Positions 31,265 to 40,519 of a stretch of DNA of 64,000 nucleotides are shown here, piece by piece. The DNA is from Rhodobiaceae bacterium (lineage in GTDB: Bacteria; Pseudomonadota; Alphaproteobacteria; Rhizobiales; Aestuariivirgaceae). The stretch's first letter is position 1; every line of letters starts with the position of its first letter. The translations under genes were made by a program, and so were the position numbers. Location of the stretch: NCBI GenBank assembly GCA_009885825.1, contig VFJY01000003.1:1-64000 (forward strand), written 5' to 3'. The notes under the pieces are model-generated. The model did not search any database, was not told the origin of the DNA, and saw only the letters and a program-made list of their open reading frames with translations.

Positions 31265-31318
31265 TTATGATACACTTTGTGGGTTAACCCTCTGAGGCTC
31301 AACAAGGAAAACAGGATC

Positions 31319-31651
31319 ATGATCAAAAGCAAATTAGCCGCCACGGCTTTAGTCGCGCTCATGGCGTTAGGCTCTGTTGCCACACCGTCGGAAGCACGCA
31401 GCAAGCGCTATTGCCGAGCCTACGCCGAGGATGTGGCCAACCATAGGGCCGGTGCCCAACAGGTTGTCGGCGGTGCCGTCGGGGGTGCCATTGCTGGTGG
31501 CGTAATTGGTGCCATCGTCGGCGGTCGCCATTCAGTCAGGGACGGAGCCATCATCGGTGGCATCGGAGGAACCGTGCTCGGTGGTGTAAGCGCCAACAAG
31601 AAATGGCGCAAACACTACGATAGGGCCTACGCCAACTGCCGCGCATCCTAG
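31319..31651 (+). CDS. small secreted glycine-zipper protein
   Basis: The 110-aa product has a signal peptide (MIKSKLAATALVALMALGSV..PSEA, about 1-25) and a central glycine-zipper region (about 48-88: VVGGAVGGAIAGGVIGAIVGG, then GAIIGGIGGTVLGGV) that can form a membrane hairpin, flanked by two cysteines (CRAYAEDV and YANCRAS). Similar proteins lie in the envelope of many alphaproteobacteria and have no proven function. The ATG at 31319 gives the complete signal peptide, with AGGA just upstream. It is monocistronic and closed by its own terminator at 31674. Confidence 0.75.
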   Translation: MIKSKLAATALVALMALGSVATPSEARSKRYCRAYAEDVANHRAGAQQVVGGAVGGAIAGGVIGAIVGGRHSVRDGAIIGGIGGTVLGGVSANKKWRKHYDRAYANCRAS

Positions 31652-31731: not shown

Positions 31732-34359
31732 CTAAATGACGGAGTCTTGCTGCTGTTTTCGCGCGCCTTGCAGGGCTTTCGCAGGCATTGGCCGACCAAA
31801 ATAATAGCCTTGTCCCTCGTGGCAGCCGAGTTCCCGCAGGGCCAGCAGTTCTGGCTCCATCTCAATTCCCTCGGCCAGCACACGCATGTTTAGGCTTTTG
31901 CCAATCGCCAGAATGGCGCGGACAATTTCAACGTTGCGCGGACTGGTGCCCAGGTCGGTGATAAGCGATCGATCAATCTTGATTTTGTCAAAATGGAATT
32001 TCTGCAAATAGCTGATGCTGGAATAGCCAGTCCCAAAGTCATCCATTGCAATGAGGGTGCCCAACTCCCTGAGCTGGAGAAGTGTCAGAAGCGTTTCATC
32101 GGAATTTTCGAGGAGTGCTGTTTCGGTGATCTCAAGTTCGACCCGTGAAGCGGCCAACCCTGAGTGGTTCAAGGCAAGTCGGAGCGAATCGATGATATTG
32201 GTGTCTTTGAACTGTTTGGCGGACAAGTTTATTGCGGCAATCAGGTGGGGTTGCCATGTTGCTGCTTCACTGCAGGCCTCTTTAAGAATCCAGTTTCCAA
32301 TCGGGACGATCAGCCCGGTTTCTTCCGCAACTGTCATGAATTCTTCAGCGGAGATGATTCCACGCGTCGGATGGTTCCAACGCAAAAGAGCCTCATAACC
32401 AGTTACTGCTTCGGTTTGCAGATCCACCAGCGGCTGGTAGTACAGGGAGAGCTCGCCCCTTCTGACGGCGCTCCGCAACTCCAGTTCCAGGGCGCGCTTG
32501 GCCAGTACATGGAGCTGCATCTGTGGTTCAAAGCTCTGATACCTGCCGCGCCCAACTGATTTCGCGCGATAGAGCGCCAGATCAACATTCTGCAAGAGTA
32601 TCGCACTGTTCGCGCCGTCCCTTGGGGCAAATGTCATGCCGACGCTTACCCCGATATTGATCCGATGTCCCTCAATATCGAAAGTCTCCGCCATTTCCGT
32701 GACGATTATATCCGCCAGAAATTCTATATCCTGCGTGATGTTGTCAACCATTGGCAGGATCAGCGCGAACTCGTCGCCACCCAGCCTTGCCACAAAATCG
32801 GTTTCGCGGACACAACTGCGAAGCCGTTTGGCAACTGCGACGATTAACTCATCGCCAACCGGATGCCCAAGCGTATCATTCACATTCTTGAAGTCATCCA
32901 GATCGACCAGCAACAAGGCGAACGTAGCGCTATCTGAAACTGGAACATCCAGAAGTGACTTCAGGTGCTTGTCAAAGCTGAACCGGTTTGGAAGGCCGGT
33001 CAACGAGTCGTGATGGGCAAGGTGATGAATATGCTCCTCCTGCCGCCGTTTCTCAGTCACGTCAGTGATAGCAGCAAGGCAAGCCTTTTTACCCATGTAG
33101 TCAATTCGTTTGGACTGTATAATGGCGGTAAAATGACTGCCATCAGCTCTCCAGAGTATGGCGTCGTGTTGTTCGGAATCGATCTCATTTGTTGAACTGA
33201 TGAGTTCAACATTTCTTTCACGATGTTCAGGTGGAGAAAATTCTACGGCAGTCATGCCCAATATCTGCTCTTTACTAAACCCAAAATGGGCCAGTGCGGC
33301 ATCGTTGATGTCAAGCATCCTGTGGTCCTCCAGGTCATAGACACCCATAGGCTGAGGATTGGCAAAGAAAAGCGATCGAAACGACTCTTCGCGCCTTTTC
33401 GCGTCCGTAACGTCGACACGTGTGCAAATGGCTCCACCGTCCGAAGTCCGATGCTGTTCATAACGGATGACACGGTTGCCGGCCAGAAAATGCTCAGTGG
33501 CATCACATTTCAACTTGTACTCGGCCAGGCGCTGGGCGAACCAAGCTTCGGGGCCATCAGGACCTATCACGTCCAAATACTTGCCGCTGTTGAGGCTGGC
33601 CTTGAGCAATTCCTCGTATGTCAGTCCAGGCGCAATCAGTTCAATGATTTCTGGAAACATGTCTTCATAGCGTTTGTTCCATAAGACGATCCGGTCTTCG
33701 GCATCCATCATGATGATTGCTTCGGGAAGGAATTCTATGGCATTGCGCAGTCTTGCGTTGGCTTCCGCAGCGTTGGCAGCCGCAGAACATGCTGCGGCCT
33801 CTGCGGATGATAACTTGTCTACCATGCGAAGACGATCAAGCCGCTCAATCACAATTTGCGCCAGGCCCTTGAGAAGCGCATTTTCGCGCGCCGTTAGTGC
33901 ATTGCGCGTTTTTGTATCTTTTATGGAAAGCACGCCAATCCTAAATCCATCTGAATCGGTCAGCGGAACGCCAGCATAAAACCGTATCCCTTTTCCGCTC
34001 GTATAGAGAGGGTTTTTCGAAAAACGTTCGTCGAGAAAAACATCGGGCACACAAAAAACATCGTCGCATTCCAACGCATGGTTGCACAGACTGCCGACGC
34101 GCGACACGCTTTGCGACTTGAAACCACAACGCCCGATGAACAACAGGACGGCTTCTTCTGCAATGCAGATCCCCGAAATGGGGGCGTCGAAGATATTGGC
34201 CGCCAGAGCCGTGATCCCGTCGAAGACTTGGTCGGTCGATCCGTCAATGAAGTTAACGTAGTCCGAAATGCGCTGCAATCGCGCCTGCTCCGAAGGGGGC
34301 AAGGAGCTCCTCTCTTGCCTTGCCAAAAGCTGAAGCGATGAATCCATGGCTAAAAGCAT
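31732..34359 (-). CDS. GAF-PAS-PAS-GGDEF-EAL cyclic-di-GMP signalling protein
   Basis: The 875-aa protein has a GAF sensor (about 45-180), a PAS domain of the PAS_7 type (about 200-325), a second PAS (about 335-450), a GGDEF domain (about 455-620) with the intact active-site loop LGGDEFALILP, and an EAL domain (about 635-870) with YEALLRW, ELEITETALL, DDFGTGYSSISYL and AEGIE. Both the diguanylate cyclase and phosphodiesterase centres look functional, so it may make or degrade c-di-GMP depending on signal. No membrane segment is seen, so it is cytosolic. Starts at 34359 and 34347 are both possible; neither has a strong ribosome site. Confidence 0.92.
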   Translation of the reverse strand: MLLAMDSSLQLLARQERSSLPPSEQARLQRISDYVNFIDGSTDQVFDGITALAANIFDAPISGICIAEEAVLLFIGRCGFKSQSVSRVGSLCNHALECDDVFCVPDVFLDERFSKNPLYTSGKGIRFYAGVPLTDSDGFRIGVLSIKDTKTRNALTARENALLKGLAQIVIERLDRLRMVDKLSSAEAAACSAAANAAEANARLRNAIEFLPEAIIMMDAEDRIVLWNKRYEDMFPEIIELIAPGLTYEELLKASLNSGKYLDVIGPDGPEAWFAQRLAEYKLKCDATEHFLAGNRVIRYEQHRTSDGGAICTRVDVTDAKRREESFRSLFFANPQPMGVYDLEDHRMLDINDAALAHFGFSKEQILGMTAVEFSPPEHRERNVELISSTNEIDSEQHDAILWRADGSHFTAIIQSKRIDYMGKKACLAAITDVTEKRRQEEHIHHLAHHDSLTGLPNRFSFDKHLKSLLDVPVSDSATFALLLVDLDDFKNVNDTLGHPVGDELIVAVAKRLRSCVRETDFVARLGGDEFALILPMVDNITQDIEFLADIIVTEMAETFDIEGHRINIGVSVGMTFAPRDGANSAILLQNVDLALYRAKSVGRGRYQSFEPQMQLHVLAKRALELELRSAVRRGELSLYYQPLVDLQTEAVTGYEALLRWNHPTRGIISAEEFMTVAEETGLIVPIGNWILKEACSEAATWQPHLIAAINLSAKQFKDTNIIDSLRLALNHSGLAASRVELEITETALLENSDETLLTLLQLRELGTLIAMDDFGTGYSSISYLQKFHFDKIKIDRSLITDLGTSPRNVEIVRAILAIGKSLNMRVLAEGIEMEPELLALRELGCHEGQGYYFGRPMPAKALQGARKQQQDSVI

Positions 34360-34501: not shown

Positions 34502-34531
34502 CAAGAAGGCCGGAGTTTCCCCCGGCCTTTA
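34501..34531. terminator. terminator next to the duplicated glnA end (bidirectional)
   Basis: GGCCGG (34508-34513) and CCGGCC (34522-34527) enclose an 8-nt loop, with CTTT after it on the plus strand and TTCTTGTTAAG on the minus strand. Its surroundings (AGCTTAACAA, then GGCCG...GGCCT) parallel the terminator after the real glnA at 37722, so it looks like a second glnA terminator. Confidence 0.65.
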
Positions 34532-34557
34532 CCATTATTCTATCTGAACCAAACTTC

Positions 34558-34617
34558 AGCAGCTGTAATACATGTCGAACTCCACCGGATGCGGGGTCAT
34601 TTCGGTGCGCATGTTTT
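34558..34617 (-). repeat. 60-bp copy of the glnA 3' end (copy A)
   Basis: This stretch matches 37780-37839 at 59 of 60 bases. Read on the minus strand it encodes the last residues of glutamine synthetase ([18 protein letters not shown]) followed by TGA. The single base difference is synonymous (TAT for TAC), and the stop is TGA rather than TAG. It lies just after the ATPase gene of the ABC exporter, so that exporter is flanked by two glnA ends. Confidence 0.9.
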
Positions 34618-34626
34618 TCGTCAAGT

Positions 34627-35349
34627 TCAAGTGCTGCCGCCGTTTTCCTGCACTCGCTCCAGATATCCATCCCTGAGATAGAAAATTCGGTTAAATCGGT
34701 TGAAGATTTTTTCGTCGTGACTAACGACCACGATGGCAGCCCGTTGCTCGACTGCAACCTGGCTCATCAGATCCATCACAACGCCGGCACGCTGGGAATC
34801 GAGGGCAGCAGTGGGTTCATCGGCCAGTATTATGCGGGGCCGGTTGGCCATGGCACGCGCAATGGCAACGCGCTGGGCTTCCCCTCCTGAAACTGTGGCG
34901 GGCATGGCATTTTTGCGATTGCCTACACCCAGATACTCCAGCAGTTCGACGGCGCGCCGCTGCGCCTCCGCAGGTGTGCGGCCAGCAAGTTCGAGGACCA
35001 TCGCGACATTTTCAGTCGCGTTTAGGAAGGGCAGAAGATTATGGAACTGGAAGATAAACCCGATCTTGTCGAGCCGTAACTTGCGCTGATCCCTTTTCAG
35101 CCAGCGGGCATCATAAATCAGTTCATCATCCAGCAGCATCCGGCCACTTGAGGGCTCAAGGATGCAAGCGATGACATTGAGAAGCGTTGACTTGCCAGAC
35201 CCGCTTGGCCCTACCAGTCCCACAATCTCGCCGGGGTAGACGCAGATTGATACCTGGCGCTGGGCATCGACGCGTGTATCGCCCTCGCCGAAATGCTTGG
35301 AAATGTTGGTGAGGGCCACGAGCGGCGTTGTTGCAGACGTGACTGGCAT
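34627..35349 (-). CDS. ABC exporter ATPase (DevA/LolD/MacB-type)
   Basis: This 240-aa ABC ATPase has Walker A GLVGPSGSGKST (about 49-60), a Q-loop in IGFIFQFHNLLPFLNATEN, the signature VSGGEAQRVAIARAMANRP, Walker B ILADEPTAALD and the H-loop VVVSHDEKIF. It belongs to the LolD/MacB/DevA class that works with FtsX-like permeases and, as here, with a HlyD-type periplasmic adaptor. The ATG at 35349 lies one base after the permease stop; upstream in-frame codons overlap the permease and are rejected. The C-terminus ends 10 bp from the duplicated glnA end. Its permease partner has a premature stop, so the system may be dead. Confidence 0.88.
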   Translation of the reverse strand: MPVTSATTPLVALTNISKHFGEGDTRVDAQRQVSICVYPGEIVGLVGPSGSGKSTLLNVIACILEPSSGRMLLDDELIYDARWLKRDQRKLRLDKIGFIFQFHNLLPFLNATENVAMVLELAGRTPAEAQRRAVELLEYLGVGNRKNAMPATVSGGEAQRVAIARAMANRPRIILADEPTAALDSQRAGVVMDLMSQVAVEQRAAIVVVSHDEKIFNRFNRIFYLRDGYLERVQENGGST

Positions 35350-35350
35350 G

Positions 35351-36484
35351 TCAGCCGCCGAGGGCTTTGGCCGGATCAACCCTGAGGGCAAGCCGGACGC
35401 CCAGCCCACTTGCAACAAGACAGACAACCAATGTGATCGCCGCCAATGCCAATCCGTCTTGCAGTTGGAGAACAACCCGCCGGGGGAAGTAGGTTCTGAA
35501 ACTGGAAATCAGCGCCGCACCGAGCAGGAAACCGGTCAAGCCCAAGGCAATGGCCTGTTGGACGATCATGCCGACGATGGTGCGGTCGGGCGCGCCGATC
35601 AGCTTTAAAGTGGCAATCTCGCGGATTTTATCCATGGTCATCGTATAGATGATGAGGGCGATAATTACAGCCGAGACGGTCATGAGGATCGTGGTGAACA
35701 ACCCGATCTGCTATCTGGCGCGTTGAACCACCGAGCCTGTCAGGATCGTTACCTGTTCATCTTGCGTCAGTGCAGTGAGGTGCTTCCATCGCCTTACGGT
35801 CTGGGCAATGTCTTCAGCCCGCACATTGTTGTTGAGGCGGGCGACAACAGCATTAACCGTATCTTTGCCAGCGCCCGAGACGCCGCGCGCAATTTCGATG
35901 CGGGCAGCAGGCGGAGCGAGATCGAACTGCAGCTTCTGGCTGTCGAGCAGGCTGACATAGGCTACGGGGTCACCGGCTGATGTGACCTGTCCTGCCGTAA
36001 GCCCGCTAACCGTAAAGCGGTTGCGCCCCAGCATCAGAGTATCACCTGGTGCAAGTCCGGTGGACCTGTCAGCCACGATCTCATAATGGTTTTTTGCGAG
36101 CGGTCGGCCCGATACCAGTGTCTCAGGTCCTCCCGGTCTTCCAGGTTCGTAGCCAATGACTTGAAATCGCAGCCTGCCACCCGCCTTCGGCACATCCACT
36201 GACTGGTAATTGACCGAACCGGCCACCACGACACCATGGATGCGCTCAATTGCTTCGCGGGTATCGCCTGGAATGCGCGAGGATTCAGCGAAGGGACCAC
36301 GTCTGTCGGCCTCCACAATCCATAAGTCGGCGGACGGCGCGCACACCAGTGTAAGCGCATCCGCCACAAGGCCGCGATAGATGCCGATCATCGCCAGCAC
36401 AACGCCCAGCAGCATTCCGAGGCCAACGCACGTCAATACGAAACGCCCGGTATTATGGCGTATGTCGCGATAGGCGAGGTTCAT
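35351..36484 (-). pseudogene. FtsX/DevC-like ABC exporter permease interrupted by an amber codon
   Basis: One frame from 36484 to 35351 (377 codons) encodes a MacB/DevC-type permease: an N-terminal helix (RFVLTCVGLGMLLGVVLAMIG, about 14-34), a periplasmic domain, and three C-terminal helices (MFTTILMTVSAVIIALIIYT onward). A TAG at 35711-35713 splits it just before the second membrane helix: VVQRAR, stop, QIGLFTTIL. A glutamine (CAG) at this position would restore the frame. Without readthrough the product lacks the three C-terminal helices and cannot form the transporter. The start overlaps the adaptor gene (ATGA). Confidence 0.82.
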
Positions 36485-37644
36485 GGCGAGGCCTCCTTGG
36501 CGACTTGCACCGCGCGCCCCTCGCGAACTCCGGTGGAGGGGCCAATGATTACGCTTGCGCCTTGCGGCACGCCGCCCGTCATTTCAATTCTGCCATCAAG
36601 CGTGCGATTGCCAAAGGTTACAGCCGTTCGCCGGGCAACGCCGTTTTCCACAACGAACACAATGCCGCTTCGACCATCATACTGTGATATCATGAGTTCG
36701 GGTGCGAGCAGAGCCGAAGGCAGGATCGTTGTCGTGATTTTGACCTCGGCTTGCTCGCCCAGGTGGAAGTCAGCCGGGCATCCGTCGCATTTCACCCAGA
36801 CGCGGCGCTCCTCACTGACGCGGTCGCTCTCGATTCCAATGCTGGTGACGTGGCCCTCAAACATCTTGCCGGGCAATGATCGCAACCGTATTTCGGCTTT
36901 CTGACCAACAGCTATCCCGCCAGCGCGTGTTTCTTCGACATGAGCTAGTACCCGTAAGCTGCGCGGGTCGATAATGGTGTAGACCGTGTCGCCCGCTTTG
37001 ACAACATCGCCTAGTTCGCGGGTCCGTTCCACCACGATACCATCAAAAGGTGATTTCAGTGTGTGGTGCTCAAGAAGAACGGCCTCATGTTTGAGATCAT
37101 CGCGGGCCGCTTCCAATGCAGCGCGCGCGACCGCCGCATCAGCTGTGGCCAGCGCCAGATCGGCTTCAGCAATCTTGAGGTCTGTGGCTGATTCCTCGGC
37201 TTTTTCAACAGATATTACTTTGTTTTTGACAAGCTCCTGCTGCCTGAAATTAACGACCAGTTTTTGCGCCAAGACCGCCGCCTGCCGATCAACAGCGGAC
37301 GAAGTTCGGCCCAGCACAGCTTCTGCCGAACGGACTCCGGCGCTGGCCCGCGTCACGCGCGCTTCCTGCTCGGATGTATGCAGTCGGGCCAGAACATCGC
37401 CACTCTTCACTTGGCTGCCATCGTCCGCAGTCACCTCAACCAATGCTGCGCCAACTTCGAAGCCAATATTGGAGATAACCTGTGCTTCGAAAGTGCCAAG
37501 CCCAAAAACCTGAACAGGCACCGACGTCTCAGTTCTTGCGACCTGAATCGGCAGCGGACGATTGTTCATGACGAATATGGCAGCCGCCACCAACAGTGCC
37601 GAGGCAACGATGAAAAGGGCAATACTGAGGGCGCGCCGGACCAT
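36481..37644 (-). CDS. HlyD/DevB-type periplasmic adaptor (membrane fusion protein)
   Basis: The 387-aa protein has one N-terminal membrane helix (about 5-25), a first biotinyl-lipoyl half (VEVTADDGSQVKSGDVLARL), a long coiled coil (about 95-190, EQEARVTRASAGVRSAEAVL to AALEAARDDLKHE), the second lipoyl half (SPFDGIVVERTRELGDVVKAG) and beta-barrel domains. It links the inner-membrane ABC exporter to an outer-membrane channel. It is the first gene of a three-gene operon with the broken permease and the ATPase. The ATG at 37644 was chosen because the 24 codons before it run toward glnA and add no family sequence. Export substrate unknown. Confidence 0.88.
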   Translation of the reverse strand: MVRRALSIALFIVASALLVAAAIFVMNNRPLPIQVARTETSVPVQVFGLGTFEAQVISNIGFEVGAALVEVTADDGSQVKSGDVLARLHTSEQEARVTRASAGVRSAEAVLGRTSSAVDRQAAVLAQKLVVNFRQQELVKNKVISVEKAEESATDLKIAEADLALATADAAVARAALEAARDDLKHEAVLLEHHTLKSPFDGIVVERTRELGDVVKAGDTVYTIIDPRSLRVLAHVEETRAGGIAVGQKAEIRLRSLPGKMFEGHVTSIGIESDRVSEERRVWVKCDGCPADFHLGEQAEVKITTTILPSALLAPELMISQYDGRSGIVFVVENGVARRTAVTFGNRTLDGRIEMTGGVPQGASVIIGPSTGVREGRAVQVAKEASP

Positions 37645-37721
37645 GGTGAAAGCCAGTCCATAGTGATTGGGCCAGCGTCCGCATTGACATAAGTCAAGCC
37701 CATGAACATTCAGCACAGCTT

Positions 37722-37753
37722 AACAATAAAGGCCGAAAATTTTGCTTCCGGCC
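37722..37753 (-). terminator. terminator of glnA
   Basis: On the minus strand GGCCG, a 13-nt loop and CGGCC are followed by TTTATTGTT. It lies about 25 bp after the glnA stop and just upstream of the HlyD-like gene. Confidence 0.65.
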
Positions 37754-37777
37754 TCATTCACTCCTTGGGTGTCAAGC

Positions 37778-39199
37778 CTAGCAGCTGTAGTACATGTCGA
37801 ACTCCACCGGATGCGGGGTCATTTCGGTGCGCATGTTTTCTTCCATTTTGAGGTCGATGTAGCTGTCGATCTGGTCGTCAGAGAAAACGCCGCCTTTCTT
37901 GAGGAAGTCGCGGTCCTTGTCCAGCGCTGCGAGGGCCTCGCGGAGCGAGCCGCACACGGTTGGAACCTGCTTCAGCTCCGCTGGCGGCAGATCGTAAAGG
38001 TTCTTGTCCATGGCCTCGCCAGGGTGGATCTTGTTGGCGATGCCGTCGAGGCCCGCCATCAACAGGGCCGAGAAGCAGAGGTATGGGTTCGCCGCCGGAT
38101 CGGGGAAACGAACCTCAACGCGCTTGGCTTTGGGATTGCTCGTATGGGGAATGCGGCAGGACGCCGAGCGGTTGCGCGAGGAGTAAGCCAGCAGCACCGG
38201 CGCTTCATAGCCCGGCACCAGGCGCTTGTAGGAGTTGGTGGAAGGGTTGGTGAAGGCGTTGCAGGCCTTGGCATGCCTGATCACGCCGCCAATGAAGAAC
38301 AGGCAGAGTTCCGATAAATCGGCATATTGATTGCCTGCCATCATCGGCTTTCCCTCTTTCCAGATGGAGAAGTGGCAATGCATGCCCGAACCATTGTCGC
38401 CGAAGATGGGCTTGGGCATGAAGGTCGCCGTCTTGCCATAGGCGTGGGCCACATTGTGGATCACGTATTTGTAGATCTGCATCTGGTCGGCCATGGTGGT
38501 GAGCGTGTCATACTTCATGCCAAGCTCGTGCTGGGCGGCGGCCACTTCATGGTGGTGCTTTTCAACCGTCACACCCATCTCGCCCATGACGGACAGCATT
38601 TCCGAGCGCATGTCCTGGGCTGAATCCATCGGGTTCATCGGGAAGTAGCCACCCTTGGTGCGCATCCGGTGGCCCATGTTGCCGGTTTCGTATGCGGTGT
38701 CTGTGTTGGTTGGCAACTCAATGGAGTCCAACTTGTAGCCCGTGTTGTAGGGCGAAGAGGCAAAGCGCACATCGTCGAAAATAAAGAATTCGGCTTCGGG
38801 GCCGACATAGATCGTGTCGCCAACCTTGGTCTGCTTCATGTAGGCCTCGGCGCGCTTGGCAATCATGCGCGGGTCGCGGGAATAGCCTTCGCCGGTTGAC
38901 GGCTCGAGAATATCGCAGAACACGGCCATGGTGGTTTGCGCGTAGAATGGATCCATGTGCGCGGTCGCCGGGTCAGGCATCAGCACCATGTCGGACTCGT
39001 TGATGGCTTTCCAGCCCGCAATTGAAGAGCCGTCAAACATCAGGCCTTCGGCCCAGGCATCCTCGCCCATCTGGGAAACATCCATGGTGAGATGCTGCAT
39101 CTTGCCGCGTGGATCGGTGAAACGGAGATCGACGTATTTGACGTCCTTGTCCTTGATCATTTTCAAGACCGACGCGACGTTCATAGGTTCCTTGGCCAT
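37778..39199 (-). CDS. glnA: glutamine synthetase type I
   Basis: GlnA makes glutamine from glutamate, ammonia and ATP in the cytosol. The 473-aa product is a full-length GSI: the Asp latch region [31 protein letters not shown] (metal ligands), [19 protein letters not shown], the [18 protein letters not shown] loop, ASCRIPHTS, and the adenylylation site NLYDLPP (Tyr near residue 398), so GlnE control is expected. It follows glnB by 30 bp and should be transcribed with it from the sigma-54 promoter at 39603. Its last 60 bp are duplicated at 34558. Confidence 0.98.
37780..37839 (-). repeat. 60-bp glnA 3' end (copy B, in the intact gene)
   Basis: This is the matching copy of 34558-34617 inside the real glnA. 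Both are in the same orientation, 3.2 kb apart, and enclose the ABC exporter genes. Confidence 0.9.
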
Positions 39200-39791: not shown

Positions 39792-40142
39792 ATGGCAAAA
39801 TCAACCCCACCGACAAATTCCTCCTCAGGGACGCAAGGATTCTCCGAGGGCCAAGCTAAGTACCAAGCCGCACCTGAATTGCCTCAACGCTGGATATTGA
39901 AAGTTGCACCCGATGGCCGGTTTGTAATCCCGGCTGCCGCACGTGCCGCAATGGAACTAGGCGAAGAAGGAAAGGTTACCGCCTATCTGGAAGACGGCGT
40001 CCTTAAGCTTGTCTCGCCTCGTGTTGCAATCAGGCATATCCAGGAAATGTTGAAACCATATCGCAGTGAAACTGATTCAATCGTTGATGAATTCATAGCG
40101 GAAAGACGAGCGGAAGCTGCGCGCGAAGAGCAGGAAAATTGA
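39792..40142 (+). CDS. vapB: AbrB/SpoVT-domain antitoxin, VapB-like
   Basis: The 116-aa antitoxin has a disordered N-terminus (about 1-30) and a swapped-hairpin AbrB domain: WILKVAPDGRFVIPAAARAAMELGEEGKVTAYLEDGVLKLVS (about 34-75), followed by a charged helical tail (RSETDSIVDEFIAERRAEAAREEQ) that would occupy the toxin active site. It should neutralise the VapC-type RNase encoded next and repress the pair. The gap before the ATG has GGAGAG. Its stop overlaps the vapC start. Confidence 0.8.
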   Translation: MAKSTPPTNSSSGTQGFSEGQAKYQAAPELPQRWILKVAPDGRFVIPAAARAAMELGEEGKVTAYLEDGVLKLVSPRVAIRHIQEMLKPYRSETDSIVDEFIAERRAEAAREEQEN

Positions 40143-40519
40143 CTTGGGTTCTGGATAGTTCGGCAATACTGGCTGAATTCCTGAAGGAATCGGGCGGTGA
40201 TCTCGTCCGTGCCTGTCAGGGAACTCACTATGTAAGTGCCGTCAACGTTGCAGAGGTCTATTCTAAACTGGCGGATTTGGGGGTTACGGTTGAAAATTTT
40301 GAAAGAGTACGAGCGATTGAACCTTTCGTTGTCGTTGAATTTGATCGCTCGCAAGCGATATTGAGTGCTCAACTTCGTCCAAGCACCAAGCACCTCGGCC
40401 TATCGCTTGGTGACCGGGCCTGCCTTGCCCTTGCCATCAGGGAAAAAGCAATTATCCTCACGGCGGATAAGAAATGGAGCGGGCTTGCCCTCGGAATTGA
40501 AATCAAGGTCATCCGCTAG
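40139..40519 (+). CDS. vapC: PIN-domain ribonuclease toxin, VapC-like
   Basis: The 126-aa PIN protein has the acidic active site: Asp6 in WVLDSSAIL, Glu in SAVNVAEVYSKL (about 40), Asp in LSLGDRACLALA (about 92), and Asp in LTADKKW (about 110). VapC toxins cut tRNA or rRNA and are blocked by VapB. The start is TTG at 40139, overlapping the antitoxin stop as TTGA. All catalytic residues are present, so the module looks functional. It lies between nitrogen control genes and a glycolytic gene, a typical insertion spot for such a mobile pair. Confidence 0.85.
   Translation: MTWVLDSSAILAEFLKESGGDLVRACQGTHYVSAVNVAEVYSKLADLGVTVENFERVRAIEPFVVVEFDRSQAILSAQLRPSTKHLGLSLGDRACLALAIREKAIILTADKKWSGLALGIEIKVIR

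Follow-up and report, generated by a model that had tools for sequence, protein, structure and literature searches.

The 64,000 nucleotides analyzed here (positions 1 to 64,000 of contig VFJY01000003.1 from a Rhodobiaceae bacterium; hereafter the window) contain a three-gene ATP-binding cassette (ABC) exporter operon that stands between the 3′ end of the glutamine synthetase gene glnA and a second copy of that same gene end. On balance, we lean towards reading this layout as the product of homology-anchored recombination between two glnA alleles that included one illegitimate join and took place at a variable spot next to glnA, and not as the trace of a self-moving element. In favor of this reading are the layout itself, the separate histories of its two gene ends, the recurrence of such scars with other cargo and other breakpoints, and the lack of any tyrosine integrase among the listed matches near the known places of glnA.

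Two glnA ends enclose the exporter

The source genome (G000) is a 222-contig draft of 98% completeness, and the window is part of its 90-kb contig. Read along the minus strand, the locus comprises glnK, glnA, the adaptor-permease-ATPase operon, the second glnA end, a terminator-like hairpin, and a GGDEF-EAL gene, after which a small glycine-zipper-like gene follows on the opposite strand. The features, with the evidence for each (ORF, open reading frame), are:

37778..39199, minus strand: intact glnA, 473 aa (ORF and relatives)
37780..37839, minus strand: functional glnA 3′ end, stop codon TAG at 37778-37780 (sequence, repeat search)
37723..37754, minus strand: terminator-like hairpin and T-run after glnA (read in the sequence, aligned)
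36481..37644, minus strand: exporter periplasmic adaptor (HlyD / MFP) gene, ORF extendable to 37716 (ORF, family search)
35351..36484, minus strand: FtsX/MacB-type (DevC-like) permease gene with one in-frame stop at 35711-35713 (ORF, family search)
34627..35349, minus strand: ABC ATPase (LolD/DevA-like) gene (ORF, family search)
34618..34626, minus strand: 9-nt junction from the ATPase stop codon to the copied glnA end (alignment)
34558..34617, minus strand: second glnA 3′ end copy, stop codon TGA at 34556-34558 (sequence, repeat search)
34502..34530, minus strand: terminator-like hairpin and T-run after the second copy (read in the sequence, aligned)
31732..34359, minus strand: GAF-PAS-GGDEF-EAL gene after the second copy (ORF, Pfam, tblastn)
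31277..31651, plus strand: small glycine-zipper-like protein gene, resident flank (homologues downstream of glnA in several relatives)

An earlier note on this DNA, made from the sequence alone, had reported that the end of glnA recurs in the same orientation with one synonymous difference, another stop codon, and a similar terminator, and our analysis bears this out. The two 60-bp ends are identical at 59 positions, the sole difference being TAC in glnA and TAT in the copy, and each is followed by a GC-rich hairpin with a T-run. The three exporter genes lie exactly between them, again as the note had it, and 9 nt separate the ATPase stop codon from the copied end. The window yielded no further direct repeat with a length of at least 35 nt.

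Beyond the stop codons, a gapped alignment of the two 75-nt flanks, with indels, pairs identical letters at 49 of 65 aligned positions, and its score of 17.0 exceeds the maximum of 11.5 among shuffles (0/500 as high). Flanks from a recent duplication would be the same, and after an old one the unused coding end would have decayed along with them; the flank differences are therefore probably older than the event that joined the two ends. Both ends encode an ENMRTEM...C tail that, among 30 other genus loci compared, only G026 shares, and both alleles should therefore stem from that subclade or from close relatives. On this comparison of sequences, the two ends have separate histories: Two glnA alleles appear to have met in the window.

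The alignment of copy and glnA stops at the junction 34618-34626 in a non-homologous join, as homology-facilitated illegitimate recombination (HFIR) would leave it, and the 9 junction nucleotides have no match in glnA upstream of the copied part. Because of this lack of a match, and because the site is well inside the 90-kb contig, a simple repeat-driven misassembly is unlikely. At the same time, a direct repeat of the gene end is present at both borders, as expected of an integrase-type element.

Similar scars in other genomes

An order-level scan for the glnA end found multiple matches in 8 of 297 genomes (G000, G036, and six that were rechecked), and a class-level scan did so in 13 of 387 (G000 and 12 that were rechecked); in both scans, the per-genome match counts cover genomes with a match, the places listed are a part of all matches, and a decayed end like that of G009 described below is probably under the profile’s reach. 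Rechecking at the order level left short end copies in G204 and G044 and only long frames (474-565 aa) in G129, G182, G226, and G302. At the class level, 10 of the 12 genomes have two frames of 474-764 aa and G740 has a short end at a contig edge, while a diverged partial gene in G726 (73% over 318 bp) was dropped.

G036 repeats the final 99 bp of its glnA 1.6 kb downstream with 95% identity, and the cargo is one 488-aa gene of 40% GC in a locus of 49.5% (L048 on G036:C117, 156-1622 nt after the glnA stop), for which no Pfam match was found at 0.1. A defense function of this cargo was considered and rejected, the sole PADLOC match being weak (Cas11a, E 0.032) and taken as chance. The relatives to compare with this case, G022 and G003, have a single glnA end, and the gene that follows the second copy in G036 stands directly after the glnA end of G022. 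In G204, from another family, 235 bp including flank and terminator occur again around a DUF992 gene with 92% identity, and the second copy carries a nonsense codon and a frameshift. G009 has a remnant of ~200 bp (75%) located ~0.6 kb downstream, which covers ~250 to 52 bp before the glnA end and is followed by a hairpin-like stretch; no cargo gene ends at it.

The repeats differ in length (60, 99, ~235, and ~200 bp in the window, G036, G204, and G009) and in how far before the glnA end their left edges lie (60, 99, ~155, and ~250 bp in the same order). These differing edges rule out one common att core, although different integrases could still differ in their cores. Between the cargo stop codon and the copied end, the spacing is 9, 3, and 9 nt in the window, G036, and G204, respectively.

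Two further genomes show glnA ends at contig borders. In G044, an identical stretch of 121 bp, made up of glnA end and terminator, is present on contig C92 and at the start of contig C1; beyond it, C92 continues directly into a gene for a Rep3 replication initiator (L066, 1516-2925) and C1 into a Clp ATPase gene. Such an exact overlap is typical of a fork in an assembly graph and would correspond to either two alleles or two copies. A contig of G740, from another family of the class, opens with a glnA end that is 82/83 identical to the genome’s own glnA and has another stop codon and flank; it may be either a second copy or the allele of another strain. This end leads into a 3.5-kb AT-rich gene pair in the last ~3.9 kb of the contig (C52, L241). 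The pair matches, with E values of 8e-7 and 4e-15, the PADLOC candidate models PDC-M65A/B; Pfam gave no match. At the far border of the pair, the GC content rises from ~0.43 to ~0.69.

As a control, we looked for direct repeats of at least 45 bp and 85% identity, 250-8000 bp apart. Across 618.5 kb of G027, G000, and G036, there were two, neither of them a gene end: a motif common to two neighboring permease genes and a pair of neighboring paralogous genes. By the same criteria, 38 loci around glnA (506.8 kb) gave the G036 pair only, and of five further glnA loci one (G007) has repeats that resemble intergenic repeat elements. End repeats are present at 2/30 glnA loci vs 0/1100 genes (p ~7e-4), or at 1/28 loci (p ~0.025) without the window, which had been chosen for this trait; both 30 and 1100, the latter counting one gene for each kb of control and flanking sequence, are rounded estimates, and the enrichment at glnA is only suggestive.

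Gene turnover downstream of glnA

The first genes downstream of glnA vary widely among the loci of the genus, and this place appears to be a variable spot of gene turnover. G026, the sister of the window on the glnA tree (support 100/99; G002 is second nearest), has a phytochelatin-synthase gene (Pfam) between glnA and the glycine-zipper-like gene (L033), and members of the same protein cluster are found downstream of glnA in G005 and G012. In G023, the glycine-zipper-like gene follows glnA directly, with Pfam matches that score under the cut-off. We further noticed a similar terminator-like hairpin on either side of the phytochelatin-synthase gene of G026. Throughout the genus, the stop codon of glnA (TAG, TGA, or TAA) and the 3′ flank differ between close relatives, and a GC-rich terminator-like stem was seen in every glnA flank read.

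The earlier note had proposed to look for an empty site among relatives without the exporter, and its reading would have suffered had all relatives carried the exporter and both ends. They do not: Exporter-less relatives with a single glnA end exist (G026, G023, and G005). The displaced end with its flank was not found in any of them.

Evidence on which of the two window ends is the resident one is mixed. The stop codon is TAG, as in the functional end, in G026, G023, and G005, and TGA, as in the displaced end, in G002. Alignment scores of the 3′ flank, tried for seven loci (functional / displaced window end), favor the functional end in G023 (13.5/9.5), G005 (21.5/13.5), and G002 (6.5/4.0) and the displaced end in G015 (5.5/7.0), G034 (5.0/8.5), and G029 (4.0/13.5). 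Whichever end is taken as resident, recombination gives the same product.

The exporter is a common operon

Adaptor, permease, and ATPase, identified by Pfam, form one operon in DevBCA order and resemble DevBCA / MacAB / LolCDE-type exporters in combining an adaptor, an FtsX-type permease with a MacB_PCD domain, and an ATPase. Unlike these, the window’s proteins score under the curated NCBIfam cut-offs for DevA (201.6 vs 295.8), DevB (36.1 vs 129), DevC (38.5 vs 290.35, for the C-terminal permease piece only), and LolD, and the permease is interrupted. The description of the operon as broken applies to the permease, with its one in-frame stop, and not to the adaptor and the ATPase, whose frames are open.

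When named genomes were scanned with the aligned permeases of six relatives, 473 places were confirmed, and 80 of them were kept. All 80 have permease and ATPase, 79 have the adaptor, and the permease frame is open through the position of the window’s stop in every one. Only two of these loci adjoin glnA, both in genus members (G034, CAUJIO010000103.1, and G029, JALHQC010000001.1), and no second glnA end was detected at either; the DNA compared at the other 78 contains no glnA, though some of these loci are short and a more distant glnA would escape. The exporters of the window, G029, and G034, all three beside glnA, are mutually closest. Within the genus, the adaptor has a match at 1e-20 in 9 of 37 genomes and stands beside glnA in three (G000, G029, and G034).

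The window’s exporter is 76-84% (permease pieces), 79% (ATPase), and 56-57% (adaptor) identical to those of G029 and G034, compared to 86-88% for glnK, 81-85% for glnA, and 61-64% for nnrD. Its GC content is 0.57-0.59 vs 0.556 for the window. A recent foreign origin, which the earlier note had suggested checking against the flanking genes, is not favored by these genus-like values of GC and divergence. Together with closest relatives that have the exporter at the same spot and no second end detected, these values also speak against an element with an integrase. In gene content, the exporter is a widespread adaptor-permease-ATPase operon, and its composition is not foreign.

Integrases and potential carriers

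The note’s statement that no integrase is left between the two ends was correct, all three genes there being exporter parts by Pfam. Its suggestion to search for integrases downstream of glnA in relatives brought up none nearby. Tyrosine integrase matches (PF00589) occur in all 37 genomes of the genus, 189 in total by the per-genome table, and their places are listed to near E 2e-15. In the 31 of 37 genomes for which the place of glnA is known, none of the matches listed is within 100 kb of it on the same contig; many contigs are short, which makes this result weaker than one from closed genomes would be, and serine recombinases and transposases were not searched for. Among the matches listed, only those of G014 (~110 kb away) and G027 (~540 kb) share the contig of glnA. 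The 46 matches of G044, G740, and G204 are all on contigs other than those with glnA or a glnA end.

Potential carriers were considered and rejected. A degenerate pattern of the glnA end has no exact match in viral_contigs. Phage records gave three weak matches, two of them under annotated glutamine synthetase genes of Salmonella entries and the third in a 1.5-kb entry without annotation. Eight matches in plasmid records are either under annotated glnA (3) or unannotated in replicons of 3.5 to 5.4 Mb (5). No report of glnA as an integration (att) site surfaced among the papers listed by the literature searches made.

Origin of the layout

Under the recombination reading, one ancestral allele would have had the order glnA, terminator, exporter, and the other, from a close relative, glnA and terminator without the exporter. 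On one side, homologous recombination would have been anchored in a conserved stretch such as glnA, while on the other an illegitimate join would have linked the sequence just after the exporter’s stop codon to a point in the last 20 codons of the other allele’s glnA. What results would be an intact glnA, followed by the exporter and then by an orphan glnA end whose terminator may now serve the exporter; no integrase would be needed. Route, direction, and this use of the terminator are what we infer from the footprint.

Processes of this kind are known. HFIR (documented in PMC3240628) has, as proposed for the window, homology on one side and a non-homologous join on the other and adds genes without a dedicated recombinase; here it is read from a footprint, with joins 3-9 nt after a stop codon and an orphan gene end left behind. 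Recombination of this type is also documented in PMC5361080 and PMC2884548, and unequal crossing-over in transformation in PMC3784515. In displacement arrays at effector loci of the type VI secretion system (T6SS; Kirchberger et al. 2017, PMC5361080) and at Rhs orphan 3′ regions, a new module similarly comes in at an upstream homology anchor and the old 3′ part is left downstream, while here a housekeeping gene would serve as anchor and remain intact, and what is left downstream is a short gene end with terminator. Many bacterial hotspots of gene gain have no integrases, and integrase-free hotspots beside recombining core genes are documented (PMC5635113); there, too, genes turn over next to a core gene in the absence of mobility genes, but the model given for them is double homologous recombination, while here one side looks illegitimate.

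Several observations weigh against this reading. Among relatives that lack the exporter, none was found to have the displaced end with its flank, nor did any close match to the displaced flank turn up, and the flank of the sister G026 scores about equally low with both window flanks (5.5/5.0). The glnA tree sets the window apart from G029 and G034, so that several losses, or else a transfer, would be needed to account for the exporter at this place. The AT-rich, foreign-looking cargo of G036 means that a donor need not have had its cargo beside glnA, and in G204 the flank was copied too, as a plain duplication would give. The Rep3 gene of G044 suggests that a plasmid-like element can reach the glnA site, and we keep a mobile origin open. 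HFIR itself is rare in E. coli conjugation, at 3e-10 per recipient cell according to PMC3240628. Finally, all three joints lie 3-9 nt from a stop codon, which is tighter than random joins and selection easily give; these positions, and how AT-rich foreign cargo reaches the glnA end, are unexplained by recombination between alleles.

The first alternative is a decayed integrative element or plasmid, i.e., a circle with a glnA end that integrated into glnA by site-specific or single-crossover recombination and later lost its recombinase. We consider it unlikely but worth serious attention. A direct repeat of a gene’s 3′ end around cargo is the classic footprint of an integrated element, and both the Rep3 branch of the G044 fork and the G740 end that leads into the PDC-M65A/B pair would fit. 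In contrast to elements that integrate in gene 3′ ends, there is no common core, the repeat length is different in every case, and the cargo of the window is a common operon of ordinary chromosomal type, without foreign composition. The integrase, viral, and literature searches described above likewise count against it, within their scope. Because glnA could be placed in no more than 31 of the 37 genus genomes and the evidence on direction is mixed, we lowered our estimate for recombination between alleles and raised that for a mobile element. The earlier note’s proposal of an insertion into the glnA 3′ end therefore survives in part: Single-end relatives, a variable place, and separate end histories agree with it, while the variable repeat length and the lack of an integrase among the listed matches speak against an integrase element. 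The recombination with another glnA end that the note gave as its alternative fits better.

Tandem duplication of the glnA end and exporter within a single lineage that later lost the second copy of the exporter is distinctly unlikely. It agrees with the repeat of G204, which runs through flank and terminator at 90-92%, and with the possibility that the exporter beside glnA is old in the genus, but in the window divergence is much greater between the flanks than between the coding ends, the GGDEF gene comes after the second end, and no exporter repeat of at least 35 nt was found in the window.

We regard as quite improbable a broader scheme in which the glnA 3′ end would be a landing site across Alphaproteobacteria for small integrase-less cassettes, each of one to three genes that end 3-9 nt before a glnA end with terminator, moved in trans or by some unfamiliar recombination route and carrying exporters, AT-rich genes without a known family, and candidate defense pairs.

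An assembly chimera of two metagenome strains would suit a 222-contig draft and the breaks or forks of other drafts at this place (G044, G034, possibly G740) but is most improbable, as the junction offers no shared sequence for an assembler jump and lies inside a 90-kb contig, and as the layout recurs in G036 and G204, each in one contig.

Neighboring genes and implications

The top genus relatives of the GAF-PAS-GGDEF-EAL gene are 42-44% identical and on contigs other than those of the known glnA places. On the other side of the locus, between glnK and a phosphofructokinase-like gene (39792-40519), we noticed antitoxin-like and PIN-toxin-like genes, labels given without a family search, with homologues near the same place in G026 and G009 (tblastn).

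Orphan ends of a conserved gene beside intact cargo may be readable scars of single recombination events. Such scars would make it possible to count and date these events at a defined place in the genome.

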